Positions 25,500-58,512 of a stretch of DNA of 64,000 bases are shown piece by piece. Both the position numbers and the translations under genes were made by a program. Positions within the stretch are counted from its first letter, which is position 1. The number at the start of each line of letters is the position of its first letter. Below the pieces are notes generated by a model. It was not told where the DNA came from. It did not search any database and saw only the letters and a list, made by a program, of their open reading frames with translations. The stretch comes from a virus: positions 55,045 to 119,044 of the IMG/VR virus record IMGVR_UViG_3300042503_002645; one strand, written 5' to 3'.

Positions 25500-26984
25500 A
25501 TGGGTACATGCGTCTACTTCGACGATTGTCCGGGGTGTTATGAAACCCAAGTGCTCTGCGAGTGCTTGTGTGGCAATCCGAACCCGTCAGAGGAGTGCGT
25601 GTGCGCTGCGGCGCCGGAAAGCGTCGAGTGCGTGTGCATCGGTCTGGGCCAGTGGGAAGAGTGCCCCGCTAATCACGTCCTGGTCGTCAACCAGGGAGAG
25701 GTCACTACGACCTGCACGTGCGAGTGCGCTGCTGCGTGCGCCAGCGTGACAGAGGTCCAATTCGATGATTGTTCATGTTGCGACTTAAGCACGCACGAAC
25801 GGTGTTTTGACGCGAACGGCGCCGAGCTGTGCGTTACGCTTTGCACGGAAGGCACGACGCGCTGCAACGCGCCAGGTGACGAGGAATGTCCCTTTGTCTG
25901 CTGTAATTCCGCGACGGAGTTTTGCTGCAACGGCGAGTGTTACCAGGAATGCGCGGCCAACGAAACAAAATACCTGATCACTCGGCCGTGGGAGTGCGCA
26001 TACATTTGCTGCAACTCCGAAACCGAGGTGGGCTGCGGCGAAAACTGCGTGCCAAAGTGCAATGAACCCGAAGTGTTGTCGCAGCGGACGTGTAACTGTT
26101 TTTGTCCGCCTGAGTACGAACGGGTCAACGGACAATGCGTGCAGCGGTCCTACAACTGTCTTGGCGGCGTTTGCCTTCAGGTCAGCGGCACAGGCGGCGC
26201 CTACGACACGCTCTACAACTGTCGCGCCGGATGCCAGGGCGGCTGTAGCGTCATTCCGCTCCCGCCCCCCTCCGTGCCGCTGTTCTGCGCTGACGGCACG
26301 CAGTACGGACTGATCGTCTACAGCCAGTTTGATCCGCTGACTTGTAGCTGGTCGCCCACGACGCTCATCTTCAACATTTGCCAGCCGCCGGAAAGCAGCA
26401 GCTCTGGCGGCGGCCCGGAACCGAGCAGCTCTTCCTCGTCGTCGTGCTGTGCCAAAGCACCTGGCCGAGCGTTTACGGAGCAGTGCGGTTACCTTGTGCC
26501 CACCGTTGTGCCAGATCCGAGCCCGTGCGCAAAGTGGTATATCCGCTACAACTGGTGCGAGACATGTTTAGACAACGGCGCGCCTAAACTACAGTCCGTC
26601 TGGCATTTTCACCTGAACCCCAACACCTGCGCGTTCGAGCCAAGCCCCGGCAACGGGCTTGGCGGTTTCACGTGCCCGCCTAGCTCAAGTTCAAACTCGT
26701 CGGCGAGTTCGATTTCGTCCAGCTCAAGCGACAGTAGTTCGTCAAGCAGCGAGAGCTCGAGTTCTAGTGTGAGCAGCAGCTCCAGCAGCTCCAGCAGCTC
26801 CAGCAGCTCCAGCAGCTCATCAAGCAGCAGTTCCAGCAGATCATCCAGCAGTTCATCAAGCAGCAGCTCCAGCAGCTCCAGCAGATCATCCAGCAGTTCA
26901 TCAAGCAGCAGCTCCAGCAGATCATCCAGCAGCAGCACGGCAGGCGGCGGTCCAGGCGGCGCGGGAGGCGGCGAGCCGCTGTAG
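25500..26984 (+). CDS. Cys-rich, granulin/EGF-like protein with polyserine tail
   Basis: 494 residues. The first 270 residues contain many Cys in close pairs (CPGCYETQVLCECLCG, ECPFVCCNSATEFCCNGEC, CAYICCNSETEVGCGENC), resembling granulin/EGF-type disulfide modules repeated at least twice. Two further Cys segments (about 315-395) are separated by a short Ser run. The last 100 residues are nearly pure Ser. A secreted-type disulfide architecture is unusual in a phage virion protein. It starts 12 nt after the other polyserine gene. Adhesin function is inference. Confidence 0.5.
   Translation: MGTCVYFDDCPGCYETQVLCECLCGNPNPSEECVCAAAPESVECVCIGLGQWEECPANHVLVVNQGEVTTTCTCECAAACASVTEVQFDDCSCCDLSTHERCFDANGAELCVTLCTEGTTRCNAPGDEECPFVCCNSATEFCCNGECYQECAANETKYLITRPWECAYICCNSETEVGCGENCVPKCNEPEVLSQRTCNCFCPPEYERVNGQCVQRSYNCLGGVCLQVSGTGGAYDTLYNCRAGCQGGCSVIPLPPPSVPLFCADGTQYGLIVYSQFDPLTCSWSPTTLIFNICQPPESSSSGGGPEPSSSSSSSCCAKAPGRAFTEQCGYLVPTVVPDPSPCAKWYIRYNWCETCLDNGAPKLQSVWHFHLNPNTCAFEPSPGNGLGGFTCPPSSSSNSSASSISSSSSDSSSSSSESSSSSVSSSSSSSSSSSSSSSSSSSSSSRSSSSSSSSSSSSSSRSSSSSSSSSSSRSSSSSTAGGGPGGAGGGEPL
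26680..26940 (+). repeat. AGCAGCTCC / TCATCCAGCAG repeats encoding polyserine
   Basis: Two unit types alternate: AGCAGCTCC-like nonamers (26770-26815) and longer units containing AGATCATCCAGCAG and TTCATCAAGCAG, repeated at least three times up to 26930. This is different from the AGCTCC array in the preceding gene, so the two Ser tracts arose separately. Confidence 0.8.
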
Positions 26985-27055
26985 TGTGTCGCAAATTGTA
27001 TTTTCTAGGTCCCGCGATACACTGACGGTTCACGCGCATCAAGGAGGCGTTGACC

Positions 27056-27583
27056 ATGCGTTGTCGTTATGCAGAAGTGCCGTGCGCCAGCGGGGGCGGT
27101 TTTATTTGTTTGCGTTGCGTGAACTGCAAAAAGCAGCTGAGCGTGGCCCGCAACCTTCGCGACAAGCTTGATGCGACTACGGCTGTTTTGCCAGACTGCG
27201 CCGCCACTACGGATCTTGGCGCGGCCGCCGTTGCGGAGCTTGAAGCGGCAACTGCCGCGGAGGCCCTGCCATTCGCCGCTTTCCCGCCGTTACCGCCCGC
27301 GCGGATCGTTTGGGATCCGACCGGCGCTGGGACGCAACTCAAGTTCTTGCTGTCGAAGCTGGGCATCAAATCAACCGAGAATTGTTCGTGTAATGCCCGC
27401 GCACGCGCCATGAACGAGCGCGGTATCGAGTGGTGCGAGCAGAATGTTGGCGAAATCGTCGGCTGGCTCAAAGAAGAGGCCACACGGCGCAACTTGCCGT
27501 TCCTCGCGTATCCCACGAAGCTGCTTGTTCAGCGCGCTATCAAGATCGCCAAGCGGCAGCGAGACAAGAAAGAGCCGCAATAG
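27056..27583 (+). CDS. Conserved phage protein with C-terminal Cys motif domain
   Basis: 175 residues from ATG 27056 behind a strong AAGGAGG. The N-terminus has CLRCVNCKKQ (zinc-knuckle-like). An acidic Ala/Glu linker follows. The C-terminal domain (about 95-155) reads GTQLKFLLSKLGIK, CSCNARARAMNERGIEWCEQ and WLKEEATRRNLPF, a pattern I associate with conserved small proteins of planctomycetes and their phages; no function is known to me. Confidence 0.5.
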   Translation: MRCRYAEVPCASGGGFICLRCVNCKKQLSVARNLRDKLDATTAVLPDCAATTDLGAAAVAELEAATAAEALPFAAFPPLPPARIVWDPTGAGTQLKFLLSKLGIKSTENCSCNARARAMNERGIEWCEQNVGEIVGWLKEEATRRNLPFLAYPTKLLVQRAIKIAKRQRDKKEPQ

Positions 27584-27592
27584 GAACCAGTC

Positions 27593-29485
27593 GTGACGCG
27601 GCCTCGTCGGCTGGTTCTTACCCACAAGCGGGCGCCCGGCGACACCGTTGTCATGACGGCGCTCGTCCGGGACATCGCGCTGACGTACCCCGGCGAGTTC
27701 GAGGTCGCCGTGGACACAAACGCCCCGGCGTTCTGGGAGAACAATCCCTATGTCGTGCGGCTCAAAGATATCAAAGCCCACGGCGCCGCCGTCCAGCAGG
27801 TCCGGCTGACCTACGGGCAGGGCCTGAAAGAGCAGAACACCGAAACCGTTCACTTCCTTTCCTATTTTCACAGGGACCTCGAGGCCCAGACACGAATCCG
27901 GGTGCCGCTGACCCTGCCGTACCCGGATCTCCACCTGAGCCCCGAGGAACGCTCCCAGAGGCCCGTAGAGGGCCGCTACTGGGTGTTTCTCTCCGGGGGG
28001 AAGTCAGACTTCACCGCCAAGGTCTGGGGCGTCCAGGCGTGGCGCCAGACGGCCCAGGAGCTAATCGGGCTGGGCATCCCGCTGGTTCAGCTCGGCGCGA
28101 CCATCCACGGCCACTGGCACCCCGAAATTCCGGGCGCCCTGAACCTGGTTGGCCGGACCAGCCCGCGGGACTGGGTTCGGCTGATACACCACGCCGACGG
28201 GGTCATTTGCGGCGTAACCGGCGCGATGCACCTGGCGGCCGCGCTACAGCGCCCCTGCGTCGTTCTGGCGGGCGGACGGGAGGCCTGGTGGTGGGAGGCC
28301 TATGTGCGGGAGAACGCCGGTCTGGGAGGCCTCCAGACGGCCCAGAAGCTCGAGGTGCCGCACCGCTACCTGCACACGATCGGCCTGCTGGACTGCTGCA
28401 GGCGGCACGGCTGTTGGAAAAACAAGGTGTTGCCCCTCAACGGCGACCCGTCGATCTGTAAGTATCCGGTGATCCAGCCGGGCCAGGCTGTGCCAAAATG
28501 CCTGGACCTGATTACGCCCGCCCATGTTGTGGAGGCCGTCATGAGCTATTACGAGGACCGGTCGCTGCCGCCGCTCCGGCCCCTGGAAGATGTCGTGCGC
28601 TACCGTGCCGAAGGGCCGCCCGCGGACCCGCCGGTCCTGGCGCCGGACGCCGCGCTTGGCGAACCAGTTGCGCCAACCAACCGCCTGCCGCCCGGCGCAA
28701 CGGACAAAGATATCTTTGACCACCCGGTCATCGGCGGGAAATTCACGGTCTGCGTGTTGTTCTACGGCCCGGCCGAGTTTCATGCGCTGCACATGCGCTG
28801 CCTGAACTCGATCATCGCCACCACGCCGCCCAACCGGATCGATCTGCGCGTGGGGTCCAACGAGCTTTGCGAGGAGACCTGCGCCGTGCTGGACCGGCTG
28901 GTGGAGCACGGCGTGATCACCAAACACTACAAGCACGTGGAAAACGCGCTGAAATACCCGGTGATGCGCGAAATGTTTCACGACCCCGATGCGCCCATCA
29001 CAACCAATTACCTGCTTTGGTTCGATGACGACTCCATCGCCGATCGAAATCAGCAGTGGCTGACGCTGCTTGCCAAGACGATTATTGCCAACCAAGAGGC
29101 CGGGTTGTTCGGCGCCGACATGACCATCCGACTGGCCCCGGCGCAGCAGCAACTCTACCGTTCGCGGCCCTGGTACCGCGGCCAGCCGTTCCTGATGCGC
29201 AACAAACGGCCCGCGCCCAATGGCGACCACACGCTTTTCGTGGCCGGTGGGTTTTTCGCGCTGAAGACCGAGGCGCTGCGTGCCGCAGACGTTCCAGACG
29301 CGACGCTCACGCACAACGGCGGCGACTACACGATTGGCGAACAGCTGCGCCAGGCAGGCTACGCCGTCGTGGGCTGGAACCGGCAGAAGCAGTACATTCA
29401 TACATCGAGCGTGCCGCGCCGCGGAGTGGCGCAGCCCCATTTCGGGACGACTGCCTGGCAGGCCGCAATTCGGAGAAAACCATGA
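27593..29485 (+). CDS. Two-domain glycosyltransferase (GT9-like plus GT2-like)
   Basis: 630 residues from GTG 27593 with AGGAA upstream. Residues 1-330 resemble GT-B heptosyltransferases (GT9): HKRAPGDTVVMTALVRDI at the start and DGVICGVTGAMHLAAALQRP near residue 205. Residues about 384-610 resemble a GT-A domain with an acidic WFDDDS motif near residue 477 (DxD, metal and nucleotide-sugar binding) and GDYTIGEQLRQAGY. Likely substrates are the Ser-rich virion proteins upstream or host surface glycans; both are inference. AT-rich GATATC sites at 27767 and 28709. Confidence 0.8.
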   Translation: MTRPRRLVLTHKRAPGDTVVMTALVRDIALTYPGEFEVAVDTNAPAFWENNPYVVRLKDIKAHGAAVQQVRLTYGQGLKEQNTETVHFLSYFHRDLEAQTRIRVPLTLPYPDLHLSPEERSQRPVEGRYWVFLSGGKSDFTAKVWGVQAWRQTAQELIGLGIPLVQLGATIHGHWHPEIPGALNLVGRTSPRDWVRLIHHADGVICGVTGAMHLAAALQRPCVVLAGGREAWWWEAYVRENAGLGGLQTAQKLEVPHRYLHTIGLLDCCRRHGCWKNKVLPLNGDPSICKYPVIQPGQAVPKCLDLITPAHVVEAVMSYYEDRSLPPLRPLEDVVRYRAEGPPADPPVLAPDAALGEPVAPTNRLPPGATDKDIFDHPVIGGKFTVCVLFYGPAEFHALHMRCLNSIIATTPPNRIDLRVGSNELCEETCAVLDRLVEHGVITKHYKHVENALKYPVMREMFHDPDAPITTNYLLWFDDDSIADRNQQWLTLLAKTIIANQEAGLFGADMTIRLAPAQQQLYRSRPWYRGQPFLMRNKRPAPNGDHTLFVAGGFFALKTEALRAADVPDATLTHNGGDYTIGEQLRQAGYAVVGWNRQKQYIHTSSVPRRGVAQPHFGTTAWQAAIRRKP

Positions 29486-29838
29486 GCTGCGCGACCTTTG
29501 CCCGCGACGACTTTTACAAGCTCATCGCGGCCGACGATTTCTTCGAGCACAACCCGGCCTTCGCGCCCGTCCAGGAAACCGTGACGCAGTGCAAGCAGGC
29601 CTACGTCGAGAGCGCAGCCAAGAAGAGCTGCGGCTGCGGCGGCTCCTCGCAGCTGATTTTCGGCTGCCTGGACGCGACGCTGGCCCTGATGGAAACATTT
29701 CGCGCCGAGAACCCAGAAGCCCTGACAACGCTGCTCGAGTACGTCCGCCGCAATCGCGGCGACCAGAGAATTACCGCGATAACGTTATACTATCGCAAGA
29801 CATCGCAGGAGCCGCTGCTAAAGGTCACGTTCCCATGA
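29482..29838 (+). CDS. Small CGCGG-motif hypothetical protein
   Basis: 118 residues, ATG 29482 overlapping the glycosyltransferase stop by four bases and preceded by GGAGAAAA. A central KKSCGCGGSSQLIF could bind metal; the flanks are helical. Translationally coupled to the genes on both sides. Family not recognised. Confidence 0.5.
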   Translation: MSCATFARDDFYKLIAADDFFEHNPAFAPVQETVTQCKQAYVESAAKKSCGCGGSSQLIFGCLDATLALMETFRAENPEALTTLLEYVRRNRGDQRITAITLYYRKTSQEPLLKVTFP

Positions 29839-30140
29839 GCACGCCCGATCCGACCCGATCCAAACTGCTGTTCGGCAACAGGCACCAGGCCAAAGCCGAC
29901 GGTGTGGAGACCGTCGCGATCAAGGTGCGGTTGCGCGATTTCCGCGGACGGCCGATTGCCGGGCGGTACGTCGAGCTGATGGCTGACCGAGATGGCGTGG
30001 AGATCGAGCAGCCCGGCCCGACAGATGCGACCGGGCTGGCTATTGGGCTGGTCCGCGCTACGACCCCCGGGCCGGTCAACATTAACGGCGTCGTCCTGCC
30101 GGAAGAAGAGCTTGGGTCGTCTTCCACTGCGCTAATTTAA
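29835..30140 (+). CDS. Single Ig-like (Big_1) domain protein
   Basis: 101 residues, ATG 29835 in an ATGA overlap. The pattern fits invasin/intimin-type Ig-like domains: ADGVETVAIKVRLRDFRGRP, then IAGRYVELM, then PTDATGLAIGLVRATTPGPV and a final strand. Phages use such domains as accessory virion decorations that bind carbohydrate or cell surfaces. Placed within the appendage block, it is likely a surface decoration. Confidence 0.7.
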   Translation: MSTPDPTRSKLLFGNRHQAKADGVETVAIKVRLRDFRGRPIAGRYVELMADRDGVEIEQPGPTDATGLAIGLVRATTPGPVNINGVVLPEEELGSSSTALI

Positions 30141-30171
30141 CATGCCTCTGTGAAATGCCAGGGAGGGCAGC

Positions 30172-30714
30172 ATGAGTTGCGAACAGTCTTCTTCGTTTGG
30201 CGGCGCGATTGAGCTTAACGAAGCAATCGGGATCAACTTTTACGCACCGGATGCGCCGGTCGAGCCGCCCAGCACAAGCGGCCGCCGCGTCCGCCTCACC
30301 TGGAGCGTGAGTCGGTACAACTTCCACGGCACCGACGGCATCCGCGTGCGCATCGAGGCGGCGGACGCCGAGTTGATGTCGGACAAGGTGTTCGCCTACC
30401 TGCTTCTGCCGATGAAGCCCGCGGCTGGTGAACGCGAAGGCGCGTTCAGCCATGTCTGCTCGCCAACGGACCTCGCCGAGTACCCCGAGGACGAGCCGAT
30501 TCCCGGCGTCCGCCCGGAGTTCTTTCGGCTCAACTACGTCGACGTGCAGCTGCGCTCGCGCTCTGAAGCCAAGGCGTTCATTCAGGACGTCACCGATGAC
30601 GTGCAGCGACTCAAGACTACGTTGGACATCATGGACACGCTGCAGACGGGCGGCTCGGTGTGGATCGGCGACGAGCCAGAGCCGGAAGTTTCCTCCTCGG
30701 AGAGTATCGGATGA
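30172..30714 (+). CDS. Hypothetical virion-associated protein
   Basis: 180 residues, ATG 30172 with GGGAGG. A beta-rich core (RVRLTWSVSRYNFHGTDGIR) is followed by an acidic C-terminal helix and a Ser-rich end. No family recognised. The last base pairs overlap the start of the next gene (ATGA). Confidence 0.45.
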   Translation: MSCEQSSSFGGAIELNEAIGINFYAPDAPVEPPSTSGRRVRLTWSVSRYNFHGTDGIRVRIEAADAELMSDKVFAYLLLPMKPAAGEREGAFSHVCSPTDLAEYPEDEPIPGVRPEFFRLNYVDVQLRSRSEAKAFIQDVTDDVQRLKTTLDIMDTLQTGGSVWIGDEPEPEVSSSESIG

Positions 30715-44478: not shown

Positions 44479-44964
44479 ATGCCGCGCGGACCCACGCGGG
44501 TACCCAACTGCAAAGCACAAAAGCTGGTAAAGGACCGTATCCCGTTCAACGGGAGCAACATCTTCGGGCGCAGGCTGCGACACGGCTACTGCGTGTATTC
44601 CTACAACGCGCAGTGGCCGCTCTACCTGCACTACTGCGACAACTGGTACGGCGTCATAGGTTATCGTTCGGCCACGACGCAGCGGCACAAAAGCCAGCTT
44701 TGCCCTGACGACGTGAAGGCCTATCTGCCGCGGCCGGTGCTGCAGCTGTTCGCGACCCTGGCAGACACGTATTACGGCAGCAACACGGACCTCGAGCTGA
44801 TCGTGCGGGCGCATTTTCCTGCTTGCACGCTGACCGCTGACGAGCGAAACCTCGACCGGGAGCGGTACCGTACTGCGGCAGGCGCAATCCAAGTCTCGAC
44901 GCCACTGGCCCGCGCCACCGTCGACTGGAACGCCGTGCGGCGCCGACGCGTGATGCCGGTCTGA
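44479..44964 (+). CDS. Small basic hypothetical protein
   Basis: 161 residues from ATG 44479, one base after the previous stop. Beta-rich middle (RHGYCVYSYNAQWPLYLHYC) and basic C-terminus. No motif recognised. Confidence 0.45.
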   Translation: MPRGPTRVPNCKAQKLVKDRIPFNGSNIFGRRLRHGYCVYSYNAQWPLYLHYCDNWYGVIGYRSATTQRHKSQLCPDDVKAYLPRPVLQLFATLADTYYGSNTDLELIVRAHFPACTLTADERNLDRERYRTAAGAIQVSTPLARATVDWNAVRRRRVMPV

Positions 44965-51238: not shown

Positions 51239-51316
51239 AACGCACGCTGCACGCTGCAGCGCGCAGTTATCTCGTTGCCAACCATGAAGGTTTTTTCTCG
51301 TAAGCGGAGTTTTTTC

Positions 51317-51682
51317 ATGCCGTTCAAGCCCTACAAGCCGACCAAGGCCGACGCCGCGCGCGCCGTAGCCGCGCAACTCAAGGCCGCGGGTCAGCCCCCA
51401 CTCCCGCAGGCCGTCCTCGCAATCCTCGAGCAGCGGGGCATCAAGATGGACCCCGGCCACTGCTCGGTGATCACGCGCGAGTTTCGCAAGAGCCTCCGCC
51501 GCGCCCGGAAGCGCCAGGCCACCAAGGTGTCGACCAGCCGCCCCACTCCGGCGCCCACCATTACCGCCGACGCCCGCCTCCTCGCGGCGGCGCAGTTCGC
51601 GAAGAGCTGCGGCGGCTTCCTGCAGGCCAAGAAAACGCTCGCCGAGCTGACGCAGATCCTTGCCCCGCTCGTCCGACCGTGA
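51317..51682 (+). CDS. Regulatory-looking protein, paralog of the next gene
   Basis: 121 residues from ATG 51317 with GGAG nine bases upstream. A basic helical N-terminus (KPYKPTKADAARAVAAQLKA) leads to LAILEQRGIKMDPGHCSVIT and a C-terminal helix AAAQFAKSCGGFLQAKKTLA. The same order occurs in the protein at 51727 (SLAERGVTVTAPQVSVALRN, then FVQNNGGLETARTLLDAYAR). I associate this layout with planctomycete proteins. DNA-binding is possible. Confidence 0.5.
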   Translation: MPFKPYKPTKADAARAVAAQLKAAGQPPLPQAVLAILEQRGIKMDPGHCSVITREFRKSLRRARKRQATKVSTSRPTPAPTITADARLLAAAQFAKSCGGFLQAKKTLAELTQILAPLVRP

Positions 51683-51726: not shown

Positions 51727-52449
51727 ATGACCAACAACGAAGCTGCCGACCTGTGGAATTCGAGCGAACCGTTCGAAAACCAGTCGCGGCCAGAACCCAA
51801 GGCAAGGAAGGCCAAACCAGGCACGGAAGCCGAGATCGTCCTACCCGAAACCGACGAAGAGTTCGCGCCCGAGCCCGATACGCTCGGCGAACTGATTGAC
51901 GGCAGCGAAGACGACATCTCTTATCTTGAGGAGCAGGCTACACCTGTTCCGGTCGCGAGCGCTGTTGCTCGAGACAATCGTGCCCGAGTAGTGGCTGCTG
52001 TTGCCGCCGCTGCTCAAAAAAGGAGTACAGCCCCCATGGCTGAAACGAAGACGAAGGTCGAGTCGATTCGCGAAGAGATCGCCCGGCGGAAGAACGCAGG
52101 GGAAGAGAACATTCGCCCGCGCGACGTGATTGCGTCCCTCGCTGAGCGGGGCGTCACGGTGACCGCACCCCAGGTCAGCGTCGCCCTGCGCAACGTGACG
52201 ACCTCGATCGTCGAGCGGAACGGCAAGGCGCCCGCCAAGGCGACCAAGCCCACCACGGCCGCGGAGAAGCCTGCCAAGCGCGTCCTAGCCCGCGTGACCG
52301 CCAACGCGCCTACGCCCGCGCCCGCGGCCAACGGACCGTCCTACGCGGCTCTCGAGGCCACGGCGGCGTTCGTGCAGAACAACGGCGGCCTGGAGACGGC
52401 CCGTACCCTGCTCGACGCCTACGCCCGCCTGTTCAATCCGGCGGGCTGA
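51727..52449 (+). CDS. Acidic/basic two-part protein with HTH-like core
   Basis: 240 residues, ATG 51727 with AGGAA. The N-terminal 90 residues are acidic (ETDEEFAPEPDTLGELIDGS); residues about 110-165 have the RPRDVIASLAERGVTVTAPQ HTH-like segment, then an Ala/Lys/Pro linker and a C-terminal FVQNNGGLETARTLLDAYAR. Paralogous to 51317. Likely a regulator; target unknown. Confidence 0.5.
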   Translation: MTNNEAADLWNSSEPFENQSRPEPKARKAKPGTEAEIVLPETDEEFAPEPDTLGELIDGSEDDISYLEEQATPVPVASAVARDNRARVVAAVAAAAQKRSTAPMAETKTKVESIREEIARRKNAGEENIRPRDVIASLAERGVTVTAPQVSVALRNVTTSIVERNGKAPAKATKPTTAAEKPAKRVLARVTANAPTPAPAANGPSYAALEATAAFVQNNGGLETARTLLDAYARLFNPAG

Positions 52450-52596: not shown

Positions 52597-52875
52597 ATGC
52601 CAACGGCCTGTCCGTCGCCGCCGCGCGACCCTACCGCGCTGGTTATGCCCGCGGGGACCATCAAACGTATCCACGTGAATCAGCACATCATCCGCGCCAA
52701 CGTCAAAGCCAAGACCGACAACCCCGGGGTTACGGTCCAGTGGCGCGGCAAGAGCTATGTCGCTCGCGCCGTCGTCATTCGCGGCACAAGTACCGTAATG
52801 CAGCGAATGAACAAGCCGCTGAGCTGCGGCGCCCGCATCTGGATTCAAACTCGCGCCGAGGTGGAGATCTTATGA
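52597..52875 (+). CDS. Conserved small phage protein
   Basis: 92 residues, ATG 52597 with a strong AAGGAGG. IHVNQHIIRANVKAKTDNPG and NKPLSCGARIWIQTRAEVEI match a widespread small phage protein family of unknown role. It overlaps the next gene by four bases (ATGA). Confidence 0.65.
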   Translation: MPTACPSPPRDPTALVMPAGTIKRIHVNQHIIRANVKAKTDNPGVTVQWRGKSYVARAVVIRGTSTVMQRMNKPLSCGARIWIQTRAEVEIL

Positions 52876-53183
52876 GCCAGTATCACGAAACACAACGCGA
52901 CGAAGATCGAGCCGCGCTGAGCAACGCGCTGCAGTACATCGACAACTTGCGCGCTACTTTTGGCGACGTAATCGCTATCCCTGAAGTCGTGACGATTGAA
53001 GATGTTTGTGGCCTCGCTCTGGACACCACTAAGGGGCCACAGCAGGTCGGAGATGTTTGTAGCCGCGAGGAAATCGTCGCCATTCTTAAAGCGATCGAGA
53101 ACAACCCCTGCGGCGATATCGCCCTGATTGCGCAGCTTGCATTGAACGAGTATCGAGAAACCAACCTCACCAACAAGGAGTGA
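52872..53183 (+). CDS. Small hypothetical protein
   Basis: 103 residues, ATG 52872 in an ATGA overlap. Helical and acidic (AALSNALQYIDNLRATFGDV). No family recognised. It precedes the DUF1257 gene by three bases. Confidence 0.5.
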   Translation: MSQYHETQRDEDRAALSNALQYIDNLRATFGDVIAIPEVVTIEDVCGLALDTTKGPQQVGDVCSREEIVAILKAIENNPCGDIALIAQLALNEYRETNLTNKE

Positions 53184-53186
53184 CCC

Positions 53187-53549
53187 ATGAGTCACATCGT
53201 GCAGATCAAGACGGAAGTGAAGGACGAGATGGCGGTCCGGGCGGCGTGTCTCCGCCTCAAGTGGGAGCAGCCCACCTTTGGCGATTTCCGCGTCTACGCC
53301 GTCACCCGTACCGGCTTGGGCGTGAAGCTCCCGGGCTGGTCGTTCCCGGTCGTCTGCAACCTGCAGACCGGCGCCGTGGATTACGACAACTTCAACGGCA
53401 GCTGGGGCGCGCAGAAGACGCTCGACCAGTTCATGCAGGCCTATACGATCGAGAAGGCGAAGCTGGAAGCCGCCAAGATGGGCTACAGCGTCTATGAGGA
53501 GTCGCTCGTCGACGGCTCCGTGAAGCTCACCGTCAACGTGGAAGGTTGA
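53187..53549 (+). CDS. DUF1257/Ycf35-like protein
   Basis: 120 residues, ATG 53187 with AAGGAG. MSHIVQIKTEVKDEMAVRAA, LKWEQPTFGDFRVYA and QKTLDQFMQAYTIEKAKLEA match the DUF1257 (Ycf35) family known from cyanobacteria, plastids and some planctomycetes and phages. Function unknown. It is followed at once by a DUF2997-like gene and a Ycf46-type AAA ATPase, a conserved trio. Confidence 0.85.
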   Translation: MSHIVQIKTEVKDEMAVRAACLRLKWEQPTFGDFRVYAVTRTGLGVKLPGWSFPVVCNLQTGAVDYDNFNGSWGAQKTLDQFMQAYTIEKAKLEAAKMGYSVYEESLVDGSVKLTVNVEG

Positions 53550-53555
53550 AGAAAC

Positions 53556-53744
53556 ATGAAGACCATCGAAATCGTCGTGTCGCCCAAGGGCGAGAGCAAG
53601 ATCGAGACCAAGGGTTTCTCCGGAGCGGGCTGCCAGGAGGCCACCCGCGCGATGGAGCAGGCGCTCGGCGCCAAGACGAGCGAGACGCTCACCGGTGAGT
53701 ACTACACCGAGGTCAACACCAATCACATCGAAGCCCAGAACTGA
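53556..53744 (+). CDS. DUF2997-like protein
   Basis: 62 residues. MKTIEIVVSPKGESKIETKG followed by FSGAGCQEATRAMEQALG is the DUF2997 signature. Usually found next to DUF1257 and a Ycf46 ATPase, as here. Role unknown; the single conserved Cys may matter. Confidence 0.85.
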   Translation: MKTIEIVVSPKGESKIETKGFSGAGCQEATRAMEQALGAKTSETLTGEYYTEVNTNHIEAQN

Positions 53745-53764
53745 CCCTCAACCAAGGAAACACG

Positions 53765-55258
53765 ATGAGCCTGCCGCAGCAGATCAAGGAGCTCGTTTGC
53801 GCCGGTTTTTCCGGCATCTGGGTCGACACCCAGGAATCTGATGATGCCATCGCTTCGGTCAAGAAGCTCTGCGAGGAGCGCGACTGGGGTTTCGAAGTCT
53901 GGGACTTGGATCGCCAGCTGTACAACCACAACGCCACCGCCGCCCCCGGCCCGGTGCAGGCGCTGCGCTGGCTCGATACGCCCGACGCGCGGACCAAGAG
54001 CACCCAGCTGCTCGTCCTGAAGAACTTCCACAAGTACCTGCCCAACCCAGAGGTGATGCAGGTCCTGCAAAACCGGATCGTCACGGGCAAGGCCATCGGC
54101 CAGCACGTCGTGGTGCTCTCGCCGGTGCTCCAGCTCCAGCCCGAGATCGAAAAGCTGTTCACCGTGGTGCATCACGAGTTGCCCACCCGCGAGCAGCTCA
54201 CGACGATCGCCAACGATCTGTTCACCGGCGAGGGGAACACGTTCGAGCGGCCAACCGACGAGGTGATCGCCAACGTCGTCGATGCCGCCTCGGGCATGAC
54301 GCGGCTCGAGGCCGAGAACGCGTTCGCGCTCTCGATGGTCCGGCACAACACGCTCAACCCGGACGTGATCTGGAACCTCAAGGCCCAGACGCTCGAGAAG
54401 GCGGGCACGCTCAGCCTCTACCGTGGCGACGCGACGTTCGACGCCCTCGGCGGCCTGGACAACCTCAAGCAGTTCTGCATCCGCGCCATGAAGCGCCAGG
54501 GCGAGGCGGACCCAGAGAAGCGGCCGCGGGGCGTGCTGCTCCTGTCGCCGCCGGGCTGCGGCAAGTCGCAGTTCGCCAAGGCGCTGGGCAACGAGGTCGG
54601 GCGGCCCACGGTCGTCCTGGACTTCGGCTCGCTCATGGGCAAGTTCGTCGGCGAGTCGGAGGGCAACATTCGCCGGGCGCTGGCCCTGGTGGACGCCATG
54701 GCGCCCTGCATCCTGTTTTGCGACGAGATCGAGAAAGGCCTCTCGGGCGTCGGCTCGAGCGGCCAGACCGACTCCGGCGTGACGGCGCGCCTGTTTGGCA
54801 CGTTCCTCACGTGGCTCAATGACCACAAGAGCGACGTGTTCTTCATCGGCACCTGCAACGACGCCAGCAAGCTGCCGCCGGAGTTCACCCGCGCGGAGCG
54901 TTTCGACGGCGTGTTCTTCGTGGACCTGCCCGGCGCGGCAGCGCGGAGCTACATCTGGGAGCTCTACCTCAACAAGTTCGGCATCGACAAGACCCAGCCC
55001 AAGCCGGACGACAGCAACTGGACGGGCGCCGAGATCAAGTCGTGCTGCCGCCTGGCCGCGCTTCTGGACGTCTCGCTCGTCGAGGCCGCGCAGAACGTGG
55101 TCCCAGTGGCCGTGACCAACGCTGATTCCATCGCCAACCTGCGGACCTGGGCCGACGGCCGCTGCATCTCGGCCGATGCCAGGGGTTACTTCAAGAAGGC
55201 GGCCAAGGCAATCACCGAGCCCGCCACCCGGCGCCGCGTTGCGCCCAGCTCGAATTGA
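53765..55258 (+). CDS. Ycf46-type AAA ATPase
   Basis: 497 residues. An N-terminal domain (1-215) of the Ycf46 kind (AGFSGIWVDTQESDDAIASV, QLLVLKNFHKYL) is followed by an AAA module: Walker A SPPGCGKS 261-268, Walker B ILFCDE 316-321, sensor-1 Asn365 in FFIGTCND and arginine-finger candidates in TRAERFD 375-381. Such ATPases remodel proteins as hexamers; the cellular target is unknown. Third gene of the DUF1257-DUF2997-AAA cassette. Confidence 0.85.
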   Translation: MSLPQQIKELVCAGFSGIWVDTQESDDAIASVKKLCEERDWGFEVWDLDRQLYNHNATAAPGPVQALRWLDTPDARTKSTQLLVLKNFHKYLPNPEVMQVLQNRIVTGKAIGQHVVVLSPVLQLQPEIEKLFTVVHHELPTREQLTTIANDLFTGEGNTFERPTDEVIANVVDAASGMTRLEAENAFALSMVRHNTLNPDVIWNLKAQTLEKAGTLSLYRGDATFDALGGLDNLKQFCIRAMKRQGEADPEKRPRGVLLLSPPGCGKSQFAKALGNEVGRPTVVLDFGSLMGKFVGESEGNIRRALALVDAMAPCILFCDEIEKGLSGVGSSGQTDSGVTARLFGTFLTWLNDHKSDVFFIGTCNDASKLPPEFTRAERFDGVFFVDLPGAAARSYIWELYLNKFGIDKTQPKPDDSNWTGAEIKSCCRLAALLDVSLVEAAQNVVPVAVTNADSIANLRTWADGRCISADARGYFKKAAKAITEPATRRRVAPSSN

Positions 55259-55303
55259 AAGATATCTTTGCGCCCGGCGGTGGCTGTGTAGCTGCCGCCG
55301 GGC
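55258..55303 (+). terminator. AAAGATATCTTT site plus GC hairpin
   Basis: The full palindrome AAAGATATCTTT (55258-55269) overlaps the AAA gene stop and is followed after two bases by GCCCGGCGG/CCGCCGGGC (55272-55280, 55295-55303). No T-run follows. The same site-plus-hairpin order occurs at 61632-61680. Confidence 0.45.
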
Positions 55304-55342: not shown

Positions 55343-55795
55343 ATGAACGAGCCGATCATGAAGCGCTGGGTTACGGCCCTGCGCAGCGGCGATTACCAGC
55401 AGAGCCGTGGCGCGCTGCGTAGCACAACCGCGGACGACAAGGAGTTGGGCAATAACTTTTGCTGCCTGGGCGTGCTCTGTGATCTTTACGCCAAAGAACA
55501 CCCGAACGCGGCCTGGGTCCGCGGCGACGACGACTCCACCTGTTGGTTTGACGCCAACACGGGCCCCGCCCCAGCCGCCGACGATGAAACGCTGCCGGAG
55601 GCCGTGCGACAATGGGCTGACATGAACGACGGACTTGGTCGCTTAAAGACCGAAGAAACTGTCGCCAAACTGCAAGCGTTGCTCCCGGACCACAAGAAAA
55701 AATCTTGGATGACCAGCCTCGCGGACATCAACGACGACGGCGTGCCGTTTCCACAGATCGCCGATTTCATCGAACAGAACTGGCAAGACCTTTGA
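55343..55795 (+). CDS. Phage protein of CCLGVLCDLY family, copy 1
   Basis: 150 residues, ATG 55343. RWVTALRSGDYQQSRGALRS, NNFCCLGVLCDLYAKEHPNA and FPQIADFIEQNW define a widespread phage family of unknown function. Copy 2 at 55803 is a tandem duplicate with similar ends and a diverged middle. Confidence 0.75.
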   Translation: MNEPIMKRWVTALRSGDYQQSRGALRSTTADDKELGNNFCCLGVLCDLYAKEHPNAAWVRGDDDSTCWFDANTGPAPAADDETLPEAVRQWADMNDGLGRLKTEETVAKLQALLPDHKKKSWMTSLADINDDGVPFPQIADFIEQNWQDL

Positions 55796-55802
55796 GGCCA
55801 AC

Positions 55803-56264
55803 ATGAAACAGGAAGTAGCAGAGAAGTGGGTCGCAGCACTGCGCAGCGGTGAGTACCAGCAGGGCCACGGCCGCCTGCGAGACACAAATACGGAGGAAGT
55901 CGGCGGCGATAAGCAAATTACACCCGGAGCGCGTTTCTGCTGTTTGGGTGTGCTCTGCGATCTGTACGCCAAGGAACACCCAAACGCGCAATGGATTCCC
56001 GAAACGGATCCAGGCGAGGACGAGTGCCTGTTTGCGCCGGATATCACGTCAGCTCACGTTGCCGCGGACGGCGACAAATTCGTCTTGCCGTCGATGGTGC
56101 GTGACTGGTCAGGAGTGCGTGAAACCGACGGCACGCCCAGCACGTTGGCCGCCGCCGACGAGCTAAGGAAATTCAACAGCAGCGCGCTTACAGAAGCCAA
56201 CGATAGAAACGTCACGTTCAAACAAATCGCAGATTTCATCGAGCAAAACTGGCAAGCCCTGTAA
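55803..56264 (+). CDS. Phage protein of CCLGVLCDLY family, copy 2
   Basis: 153 residues, ATG 55803. KWVAALRSGEYQQGHGRLRD, RFCCLGVLCDLYAKEHPNAQ and FKQIADFIEQNW match copy 1 closely at both ends; the region between residues 60 and 130 differs. Tandem gene duplication with divergence. Confidence 0.75.
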   Translation: MKQEVAEKWVAALRSGEYQQGHGRLRDTNTEEVGGDKQITPGARFCCLGVLCDLYAKEHPNAQWIPETDPGEDECLFAPDITSAHVAADGDKFVLPSMVRDWSGVRETDGTPSTLAAADELRKFNSSALTEANDRNVTFKQIADFIEQNWQAL

Positions 56265-56282: not shown

Positions 56283-57242
56283 GTGAGCACGACTCTCGAA
56301 GCCCCGCCGGAAGCCCCGGCGGGCGACGGCGCCCCGATCGCTGACGCAGCGCAGGAGATGCGCGCCAGCATGGGCGCGGTCGAACTGTCGTTCACTTGGC
56401 TCGGCACCCAGCGCAAGCTGGAAGACCGGCAGACCAAGCAGGCCGCCGATACGTTTCACGCCGACGCCAAGAGCGTGCGCGCCAGCAAGGTGCTCATCGA
56501 CTCGAAGCACCCGGCGTACAAGGCGGCCACTATCATTCGCAGCCAGGCCCGGAGTTTCCTCCGCGGCATCAGCCTGCCCTATCCGCAAGAAGGCGTTCGC
56601 CTGATCAAGCTCTCTGATATTGATCGCTTCGAGGCGCAGATGCGCGAGTTCCGCCAGCGGCTGGACGACGCCGTGGCGACGCTCACCGAGCACTACGACG
56701 CGATCAAGGCCAACGCCCGCGAGCGCCTCGGGGACCTCTACAACCCGACCGACTACCCCAACAACCTCGACGGGGTGTTCAGCCTCACGTGGGAGTATCC
56801 GTCGATCGAGCCGCCGGAATACCTGCTCCACTACAACCCGCAGCTCTACCAGCAGAAGCAGGCCGAGGTGCGCGACCGGTTTGAGCAAGCGGTGATCCTG
56901 GCTGAGAACGCGTTCGGCGAACGACTCCAGGAGCTGATCGATCACCTGCTCGAGCGCCTCCGCGGCGTCGAGACAGGCGATACAAAGCGATTCTCGAACG
57001 CGACCGTGGAGAACTTCACCGAGTTTGCGGCCGAGTTCCGGAAGATGAACATCCGCGGCAACACGCAGCTCGAGGCGCTGGTGGACCGCGCCCAGGCCGT
57101 CGTGGCGGGCGTTGATTCCAAGGCGGTCAAGGCCAACGGCGACCTCCGGCAGACGCTCTCGACCCAGATGGGCGAAGTGCGCGACGCGTTGGACACTCTT
57201 CTGGCCAACCAGCCTCGTCGCCGCGTCATGCGGATGGACTGA
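56283..57242 (+). CDS. Helical hypothetical protein
   Basis: 319 residues from GTG 56283 with AGGAGG. Mostly helical (QRKLEDRQTKQAADTFHADA), with a coiled coil at the C-terminus. It ends RRRVMRMD, and the next protein carries RRIMRMEETS at its end. Family not firmly recognised. TGATG overlap with the next gene. Confidence 0.5.
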   Translation: MSTTLEAPPEAPAGDGAPIADAAQEMRASMGAVELSFTWLGTQRKLEDRQTKQAADTFHADAKSVRASKVLIDSKHPAYKAATIIRSQARSFLRGISLPYPQEGVRLIKLSDIDRFEAQMREFRQRLDDAVATLTEHYDAIKANARERLGDLYNPTDYPNNLDGVFSLTWEYPSIEPPEYLLHYNPQLYQQKQAEVRDRFEQAVILAENAFGERLQELIDHLLERLRGVETGDTKRFSNATVENFTEFAAEFRKMNIRGNTQLEALVDRAQAVVAGVDSKAVKANGDLRQTLSTQMGEVRDALDTLLANQPRRRVMRMD

Positions 57243-58243
57243 TGGACGAGGTCGCCAAGCTCAAAGATTCATTGACGCCTGATTTCTCAAATCCGCCGTC
57301 GATCCGAAAGAAACGTGCGCCCAAGCACGATTTCAAGGACGGCAACGGGCGGGTGTTCGCGCACCGCCACGATCACGGCGGCGGCTGGGTGGCGGACACG
57401 GCCTGGGTAGCGCCCACTGCAAAGGTCACCCGCAACGCACAGGTCTACGGTTTTGCACGCGTCGCGGACCAGTGCGAAATCACTGGCGCGTCGCGCGTCT
57501 ACGGTCGCGCGCGGCTGTTTGATCGTGTGCAGTTGCATCAGTGCGCCGAGGTTTCCGGTTGCGCCAAGGTGATGGATCGCAGCACCTTGTACGATGACGC
57601 GCAGGTCACCGACAACGCGCTGGTTTGCGGCAGCAGCTCGTTCACCCAGCGTGTGTACGTTGCCAACGACGCCTTGGTACACAACACGCGGATCGCCGGG
57701 CCGCCTAAGAACGGCCGTGCGATGATCCTCGACTCGGCGCGCGTATTGAACTGCGTAATTGAGGGCCACACGCGGGTTGAAAACGCATCGCTGTGCGAAA
57801 ACACGGGGCTGCGCAACGCGCGCGTGCACCTGACGGCGCGGCTCGTCCATAGTAATTTGCACGGCAACCTTTCTGCGCGCTATTACCTGTACGCGCATGG
57901 TAGCCTGGAGTTAAACCCCGGCGAGCCAACGCTCGAGTCGCAGGTCGTATCGTTTAGCGGCGCGGCATATCGAAGCGCGTATTTTGGCCACCCCGCCGTC
58001 ATTGGTCCAAACGTCCATCTGTTCCATTCCACTTTTCGGCTCGATGGCGAAGAGGTGAATGACTACTTCGCTGCGCTGAACTACAGGTTTGTGGACGTCA
58101 ACGCGTATAACCTGGACGCAATCCGCAGGCTTGTCGAGGGGCCACAGCCGCAGCTGGTCGCTGTTCCGGTACCGCCGTCGCGTCCCGCCAGTTTCGATTC
58201 TGTGGGTCAACGCCGCATCATGCGGATGGAGGAAACCTCGTGA
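57242..58243 (+). CDS. Left-handed beta-helix (hexapeptide-like) protein
   Basis: 333 residues, ATG 57242 in TGATG. Residues about 50-230 contain stacked strand repeats (DTAWVAPTAKVTRNAQVYGF, ARVADQCEITGASRVYGRAR) typical of hexapeptide/YdcK-like beta-helices that are common in phages. No transferase active-site residues recognised. Could be a virion or host-interaction protein. Confidence 0.7.
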   Translation: MDEVAKLKDSLTPDFSNPPSIRKKRAPKHDFKDGNGRVFAHRHDHGGGWVADTAWVAPTAKVTRNAQVYGFARVADQCEITGASRVYGRARLFDRVQLHQCAEVSGCAKVMDRSTLYDDAQVTDNALVCGSSSFTQRVYVANDALVHNTRIAGPPKNGRAMILDSARVLNCVIEGHTRVENASLCENTGLRNARVHLTARLVHSNLHGNLSARYYLYAHGSLELNPGEPTLESQVVSFSGAAYRSAYFGHPAVIGPNVHLFHSTFRLDGEEVNDYFAALNYRFVDVNAYNLDAIRRLVEGPQPQLVAVPVPPSRPASFDSVGQRRIMRMEETS

Positions 58244-58512
58244 ACATCTACGTGCGCCCCGACGGCAATGCTCAGTGCATCTACGACGAGGCTATCGATC
58301 TAGACCAGGTGGGCGCCGTGGCCATTCGCCGCGCGTCCCACGTCGAGCCCGCGGCCAACGGACCGGGTTGGACAGCTGACCTGTCGCCCGTGGGTGGGCC
58401 GGTGCTGGGTCCGTTTCCCAAGCGCAACGAGGCTCTCGCCGCCGAGATCGCGTGGCTGGAAGTGAACCTGGCCAACGGACCGGTTACGGTGCGTGAGGGT
58501 CCAAGTGAGTAG
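58240..58512 (+). CDS. Conserved small phage protein (GPVLGPF family)
   Basis: 90 residues, GTGA overlap with the previous gene (the start is GTG 58240). IRRASHVEPAANGPGWTADL then SPVGGPVLGPFPKRNEALAA and EIAWLEVNLANG match a common short phage family of unknown role. Confidence 0.75.
   Translation: MNIYVRPDGNAQCIYDEAIDLDQVGAVAIRRASHVEPAANGPGWTADLSPVGGPVLGPFPKRNEALAAEIAWLEVNLANGPVTVREGPSE

Follow-up and report, generated by a model that had tools for sequence, protein, structure and literature searches.

We analyzed a 64,000-nucleotide stretch of viral DNA (hereafter the window), which spans positions 55045-119044 of a 119,044-bp IMG/VR virus contig. Three consecutive open reading frames on one strand, separated by gaps of 6 bp and 20 bp, encode a DUF1257 protein, a DUF2997 protein, and an AAA ATPase. 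These three genes (the trio) and the features discussed with them are as follows:

44479..44964, plus strand: 161-aa protein that may also carry the tag (C-terminus VRRRRVMPV)
52597..52875, plus strand: 92-aa upstream neighbor, conserved in the window phage lineage only
52872..53183, plus strand: 103-aa upstream neighbor, conserved in the window phage lineage only
53187..53549, plus strand: DUF1257 (Ycf35-like) protein, 120 aa, putative adaptor subunit (sub-threshold PF06868 match plus leave-one-out profile)
53556..53744, plus strand: DUF2997 protein, 62 aa, putative adaptor subunit (PF11211, conservation, fusion to DUF1257 in loci L092 and L098)
53765..55258, plus strand: tandem AAA ATPase, 497 aa (Pfam, motifs, AlphaFold2, Foldseek)
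55199..55255, plus strand: C-terminal tail of the AAA, disordered, with TRRRVAPSSN as its last residues (R-x-[VL] motif kept, linker variable)
55272..55303, plus strand: G+C-rich hairpin with a 13 bp stem and a TGTGTA loop, after the AAA gene
55343-55795 and 55803-56264, plus strand: paralogous gene pair (phrog_18067, 45% identical) between the AAA and the coiled-coil partner
56283..57242, plus strand: mostly helical (coiled-coil) partner, 319 aa, tail PRRRVMRMD (codons 57213-57239)
57242..58243, plus strand: hexapeptide-repeat (left-handed beta-helix) protein, 333 aa, tail QRRIMRMEETS (codons 58208-58240)
58240..58512, plus strand: conserved module protein, 90 aa

The preliminary description had named the three families from the letters, and homology searches with Pfam or leave-one-out profiles recovered all of them. 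The DUF2997 protein matched Pfam PF11211 (E = 1.3e-15; 57.4 bits, cut-off 24.1), and the AAA matched PF00004 (E = 4.8e-26) and phrog_8638 (E = 3.5e-79). The DUF1257 protein scored 16.5 bits against PF06868 alone, under the cut-off of 22.2; a leave-one-out profile, built from its DUF1257 relatives with the window protein omitted, placed it in the family beyond doubt (E = 1.3e-26), and its relatives in L338C, HJ05, Tunturi_3, and FBPa45 scored over the Pfam cut-off. Residues S2, H3, D67, and Y86 are invariant in DUF1257; in DUF2997, EYY is conserved and the cysteine of G..G..C is nearly invariant. Two Clostridia encode DUF1257 and DUF2997 as a single polypeptide directly after the AAA (L092:6557-7111 and L098:4319-4888), which is strong evidence that both act together.

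Architecture and kinship of the AAA ATPase

The key AAA motifs, said earlier to be intact, are all present: Walker A (PPGCGKS), Walker B (FCDEIEKG), sensor-1 N365, arginine fingers R376/R379, and an aromatic pore loop (KFVG). With these five motor motifs kept, the protein belongs to the classic AAA ATPases. An AlphaFold2 model from 45 aligned sequences (pLDDT 85.9, pTM 0.79) comprised a P-loop-less, D1-like AAA+ domain (residues 1-220), an active, D2-like AAA domain (residues 221-470), and a disordered tail (residues 479-497, pLDDT below 50). The best PDB matches found by Foldseek were p97/Cdc48/Rix7, with both domains matched over the full length. The window AAA shares with these proteins two AAA+ domains in tandem and an active D2 with a classic pore loop, but its D1 lacks Walker A, it has no separate p97 N-domain, and its adaptors are different; we therefore regard it as working alike and do not count it among the p97/Cdc48-type tandem AAAs. 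As modeled, this two-tier architecture with an inactive first tier and no protease domain suggests an unfoldase or remodeler. Membership in a MoxR-vWA chaperone pair was also considered and rejected: the AAA matched the classic AAA model only, and no vWA domain was detected among the window neighbors scanned with Pfam.

The label Ycf46 given to the AAA stands at the level of the broad family, to which the window protein belongs by its N-terminal P-loop-less domain, its AAA domain, and its association with DUF1257/DUF2997. A closer identity does not stand. In the AAA tree, the window protein, its phage relatives, and four planctomycete sequences (L083-L086) formed one group (SH-aLRT 95), apart from cyanobacterial Ycf46 proper (L151 and L154) and from the AAAs of other cultured phages, which had long branches. 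This grouping makes Planctomycetes a possible host or gene source. The proposed kinship with a cyanobacterial and planctomycete gene set was supported. A 14-sequence alignment was too divergent for collection scans.

One relative has an unusual segment order. In the AAA of phage Tunturi_3 (gp103, L016:3689-5284), two segments of the AAA core have changed places within one open frame: the Walker B segment (VIIWYDEIEKG...MQERG) comes first and the Walker A segment (GVPGVSKS...) second. We found no close relatives of this protein in IMG/VR, so this order may reflect either a real permutation or a local assembly error.

Genomic context and recurrence of the trio

The window contig encodes a tail-sheath protein and an RNA polymerase beta-like protein of 1459 aa, which bears out that the trio lies in a phage genome. 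Given these two proteins and relatives on contigs of up to 204 kb, the contig probably represents part of a large myovirus genome. The RNA polymerase beta-like gene lies at L029:6988-11367 (contig 25988-30367), and most of its length matches two PHROG families whose function is unknown. A PHROG scan of nine large window ORFs returned no matches.

Relatives of the AAA are encoded at 12 IMG/VR loci. At 11 of these, which include the near-identical pairs L004/L011 and L008/L010, DUF1257 and DUF2997 directly precede the AAA in the same order; neither was found at the twelfth (L013), where the AAA has 29% identity. This recurrence, together with that in unrelated cultured phages, indicates that the adjacency of the three genes is not due to chance. 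The preliminary description had also placed the trio between hairpin-bounded junctions. One strong hairpin is real (55272-55303), yet gene order is conserved in the relatives from about 51.3 kb to 61 kb, past the trio on both sides, and in L004, L011, and L008 the gene for the coiled-coil partner follows the AAA after only 63-67 bp. Synteny on both sides and the closeness of the next conserved gene leave a hairpin-bounded cassette without support.

Several smaller features accompany this conserved order. The phrog_18067 pair is absent at the matching place in L004, L008, and L011, and a relative of it also lies near the AAA in Tunturi_3 (L016:8451-8984). Upstream of the trio, the genes at 51275-51682 and 51727-52449 are conserved in the window lineage and belong to families with overlapping profiles (likely paralogs). 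Relatives of the 90-aa protein lie just after DUF2997 in FBPa45, L338C, and HJ05 and near DUF2997 in Tunturi_3, and one is also present in L012. G+C-rich hairpins with a T[GA]TGTA hexaloop and stems of 8-16 bp, all intergenic, occur in the window at 55272-55303 and 59476, and in the relative G003 (L069-L076) near 121.8, 124.3, and 132.2 kb; these are perhaps terminators or RNA processing sites of the window phage lineage.

Beyond this lineage, AAA relatives were found in 126 phage records, and the trio, as assigned by Pfam or leave-one-out profiles, is found again in unrelated siphophages that infect Rhizobium, Rhodobacter, Aeromonas, Pseudomonas, Agrobacterium, and Tunturiibacter as well as in an archaeal spindle virus. 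In Rhizobium phage L338C, Rhodobacter phage RcDurkin, Aeromonas phage HJ05, Pseudomonas phage FBPa45, and Agrobacterium phage JP1, the order is AAA, at least one other gene, DUF1257, and DUF2997. In Tunturiibacter phage Tunturi_3 and Acidianus tailed spindle virus, no other gene separates the AAA from the DUF1257 and DUF2997 genes that come after it; in the latter, leave-one-out profiles identified DUF2997 at E = 1.9e-8 and DUF1257 at E = 3.7e-6. Other archaeal spindle viruses also encode AAA ATPases, namely ATV p529 and the MoxR-type p618 (PMC4124505). Although p529 is, like the AAA of the trio-bearing Acidianus tailed spindle virus, an AAA ATPase of a spindle virus, kinship with it was dropped because DUF1257 and DUF2997 are absent beside it.

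The trio is also found on plasmids and in cells. In an operon exemplified by the Rhodococcus aetherivorans BW2 plasmid and Paenibacillus polymyxa pPPM1a, the order is AAA, DUF1257, DUF2997, a helix-hairpin-helix (membrane) protein, and a 4Fe-4S single cluster protein. The protein of about 200 aa that lies beside tagged cellular partners was of the NrdG/PflA radical-SAM type in 12/12 loci compared (five by Pfam scan, the rest homologous by BLAST), and NCBI annotation of the plasmids gives the same operon, including the radical-SAM gene. These operons have the same core trio as the phages and the same kind of C-terminal tag on the AAA and a partner; the phages, in contrast, lack the radical-SAM gene and the helix-hairpin-helix membrane partner and have other tagged partners. 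The three genes are therefore not unrelated neighbors everywhere else, as they recur together in cells, phages, plasmids, and an archaeal virus, and their presence on mobile elements (phages, conjugative plasmids, and the archaeal virus) agrees with the transferability first suggested for them.

All three families (Ycf46, Ycf35, and DUF2997) are conserved among cyanobacteria, and Ycf46 and Ycf35 are also conserved in many algal plastids; to our knowledge, no mechanism is known for any of the three. The cyanobacterial and plastid Ycf46 (slr0374) cluster comprises the same three families, with ycf35 directly after ycf46 in L151 and L154, and a conserved AAA tail (AEYQRMEF). The window differs in that its AAA belongs to another clade, no ferredoxin is present, and the helical and beta-helix partners are phage-specific.

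A shared C-terminal tag

In the window phage lineage, the tag RR[VI]M is found on the coiled-coil and left-handed beta-helix proteins encoded downstream of the AAA. Among all predicted proteins of the contig, 4/6 occurrences of RR[VIL][MA] lie in a C-terminus, where 0.4 would be expected. Residue R489 of the AAA tail is at least 90% conserved in an alignment reaching down to 22% identity, and relatives keep the tagged ends with changes such as RRKL, RRRL, and RRLL in L006. The 319-aa partner is a conserved neighbor of the AAA, both in phages and at planctomycete and verrucomicrobial loci. More generally, 5/7 phage partner genes had ends of the form [RK].[LIVM].[LIVMF], compared with 1.9% in the background. 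Scoring AAA tails by BLOSUM against all tails of each phage was noisy over whole proteomes, and tests with defined motifs were used instead. The 161-aa protein at 44479..44964 may only resemble another protein of the window phage, which ends VARQRMAETA.

Cellular AAAs carry a tag of the form R-x-[LVIM]-[DE]-[LFIY]-COOH (RGGRTLDF, GRKLEI, RQMEL, AEYQRMEF, and others), and so do unrelated neighbors, including membrane-anchored helix-hairpin-helix partners. The RR[VI]M of the window lineage departs from this R-x-h-D/E-h form and in some cases is followed by further residues. At one locus (L115), six consecutive ORFs are tagged beside an AAA ending GGRTLDF. At loci with a tagged AAA, 17/227 neighboring genes carried the tag, compared with 4/485 at loci with an untagged AAA (locus-level Fisher p = 2e-5); the expectation from internal frequency was 0.6, and 16/17 of the tagged neighbors lie on the strand of the AAA. 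Because the tag pattern had been partly shaped on this first data set, we examined new data. Tagged partners were present in 8/13 fresh genome loci (Flavobacteriales and an actinobacterial order) and were seen again on plasmids pZXY22 and Rhodococcus BW2 (L190, L193). On pPPM1a, a changed tag is common to the AAA (RRISH) and its partners (RVIHF, RVIRL), a lineage-specific variant. The cyanobacterial Ycf46 tail AEYQRMEF was conserved in 9 genes; among real genes of 20 cyanobacterial genomes, Ycf46 itself was the only one found to end in RMEF.

Most tagged cellular partners combine hydrophobic N-terminal segments with a ComEA-like helix-hairpin-helix domain. A protein from Gastranaerophilales (L155:7809-8549), encoded beside a Ycf46-like AAA, has N-terminal hydrophobic segments, an Mrr-type nuclease domain, and the tag GRRLDV. 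The AAA tail was associated with the presence of DUF1257/DUF2997 in the locus (20:2 versus 12:22, p = 3e-5, confounded by phylogeny and uncorrected). Mycobacterium phage Firecracker and Javan368 have a tagged AAA, yet neither DUF1257 nor DUF2997 was found near it.

A possible tag-guided unfoldase and its alternatives

From these sequence patterns, we propose, with about equal weight for and against, a tag-guided unfoldase in which DUF1257 and DUF2997 would act as adaptors and partners would dock by the shared C-terminal tag and be remodeled. On this view, the system is widespread and has a viral branch, with the trio at its core. The motor would be a two-ring AAA of p97/Cdc48 type, with the ATP site lost from the first ring, and DUF1257 and DUF2997 together would be its dedicated adaptor pair. 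The short C-terminal peptide would be the recognition element by which partner or client proteins are found; in the window phage, these would be the helical protein (56283-57242) and the beta-helix protein (57242-58243). As the AAA itself carries the tag, partners probably dock where the AAA tail docks, most likely on DUF1257/DUF2997, and would then be threaded through the active-ring pore, unfolded, and remodeled. The biological job may be the remodeling of a viral assembly or, in cells, of a membrane- or DNA-associated one.

DUF1257/DUF2997 would be the first candidate for the tag receptor, given the association of the tail with the pair, their fusion, and the absence of any other shared gene. 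The tagged AAAs of Firecracker and Javan368 imply that the pair is not the sole possible receptor, and the AAA itself may serve. A point against the adaptor role is that the fold of the pair matches no known peptide-binding fold: a fold search returned no PDB match at E below 0.001 for the model of the fused DUF1257-DUF2997 protein (AlphaFold2 pLDDT 90.8). The divergent RR[VI]M form of the window lineage and the lack of a second RMEF-ending protein in the cyanobacterial genomes searched also weigh against the tag-guided reading. A weak resemblance of this model to TBP-like repeats (RnlA, TBP) was not used as evidence. Some known AAA machines read a short C-terminal peptide of their client, as in Vps4-ESCRT-III (MIT-MIM) and CbbX with the RbcL tail. 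These are analogues of the proposed mechanism; their sequences are unrelated, and AAAs of the window type differ in bearing the tag too.

The same tail might instead be an assembly or targeting signal that brings the AAA and its partners to one membrane patch, viral compartment, or protein shell without the AAA reading it, which we regard as rather unlikely. Co-localization is plausible because most tagged cellular partners have hydrophobic N-terminal segments and helix-hairpin-helix domains, and the AAA would be tagged as a fellow passenger; however, hydrophobic segments would already take such partners to the membrane without an address tag. In addition, the tag tracks DUF1257/DUF2997 and occurs next to AAAs of this family, which would be expected of a signal that the machine reads. 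In another scheme, docking would be of the HbYX type: AAA and partner tails would insert into a ring of DUF1257 and/or DUF2997, opening or anchoring it, with the partners as co-regulators and not clients. The AAA tail does lie at the extreme C-terminus behind a disordered linker, as in proteasomal ATPases, and its association with the DUF pair would fit, but no ring-forming or protease fold was seen in the DUF model and both proteins are very small, so we find this scheme improbable.

The preliminary description had looked to host metabolism or defense, and neither role gained support. That the phage trio modulates an iron-sulfur or radical-enzyme process of the host, as an auxiliary metabolic or redox system, could be argued from the NrdG/PflA-type radical-SAM protein in cellular operons, the near-invariant cysteine of DUF2997, and the position of duf2997 and ycf35 adjoining the ferredoxin gene fed7 in cyanobacteria (PMC4284462). 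The phages lack the iron-sulfur partners of the cellular systems: no Fer4_12 radical-SAM gene was found in 14 viral records (the window record and 13 others) by a search that found the gene in 14/14 control genomes, which leaves this reading very improbable. According to a later paper that cites the work, loss of Ycf46 in Synechocystis lowers the activity of the carbonic anhydrase EcaB (Jiang 2015, cited in PMC7496141). Anti-phage defense or superinfection exclusion carried by the phage would suit a patchy distribution (4/296 and 11/297 genomes), carriage on plasmids, and the Mrr-type nuclease domain of one tagged partner (L155). We nevertheless hold it to be very unlikely, since PADLOC gave generic AAA matches only and the module of the cultured phages belongs to their normal gene order, with lysis genes on one side and replication genes on the other. 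Membership in the IetAS system was rejected, as IetA models matched only the AAA core (about 54 bits) and PADLOC gave no other match, with none for either DUF or for the phage partner proteins tested.

If the trio is a tag-guided unfoldase, the shared tag would name the partner proteins in each genome and predict where they bind, which offers a concrete handle on Ycf46, Ycf35, and DUF2997. The carriers of the machine include tailed phages, plasmids, and an archaeal virus, which suggests a general remodeling job rather than a photosynthetic one. We found no description of the trio-plus-tag system in the literature searched. It is conceivable, at slightly less than even confidence, that an undescribed family of peptide-tag-coupled unfoldases is at hand, consisting of a p97-like AAA whose first ring is inactive, the adaptor pair DUF1257-DUF2997, and tagged partners. 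This family might extend over bacteria, archaea, cyanobacteria, plasmids, tailed phages, and an archaeal spindle virus, with partners of unrelated folds having converged on the tag of the AAA, a proposal on which we lean a little toward doubt.

On the Treponema succinifaciens plasmid pTRESU01 (L191:4321-8545), a Ycf46-like AAA ending VRKLEM adjoins a 4Fe-4S radical-SAM protein. The pair lies directly before a gene for a "phage baseplate assembly protein V", which suggests that this locus is a contractile-injection-type cluster.
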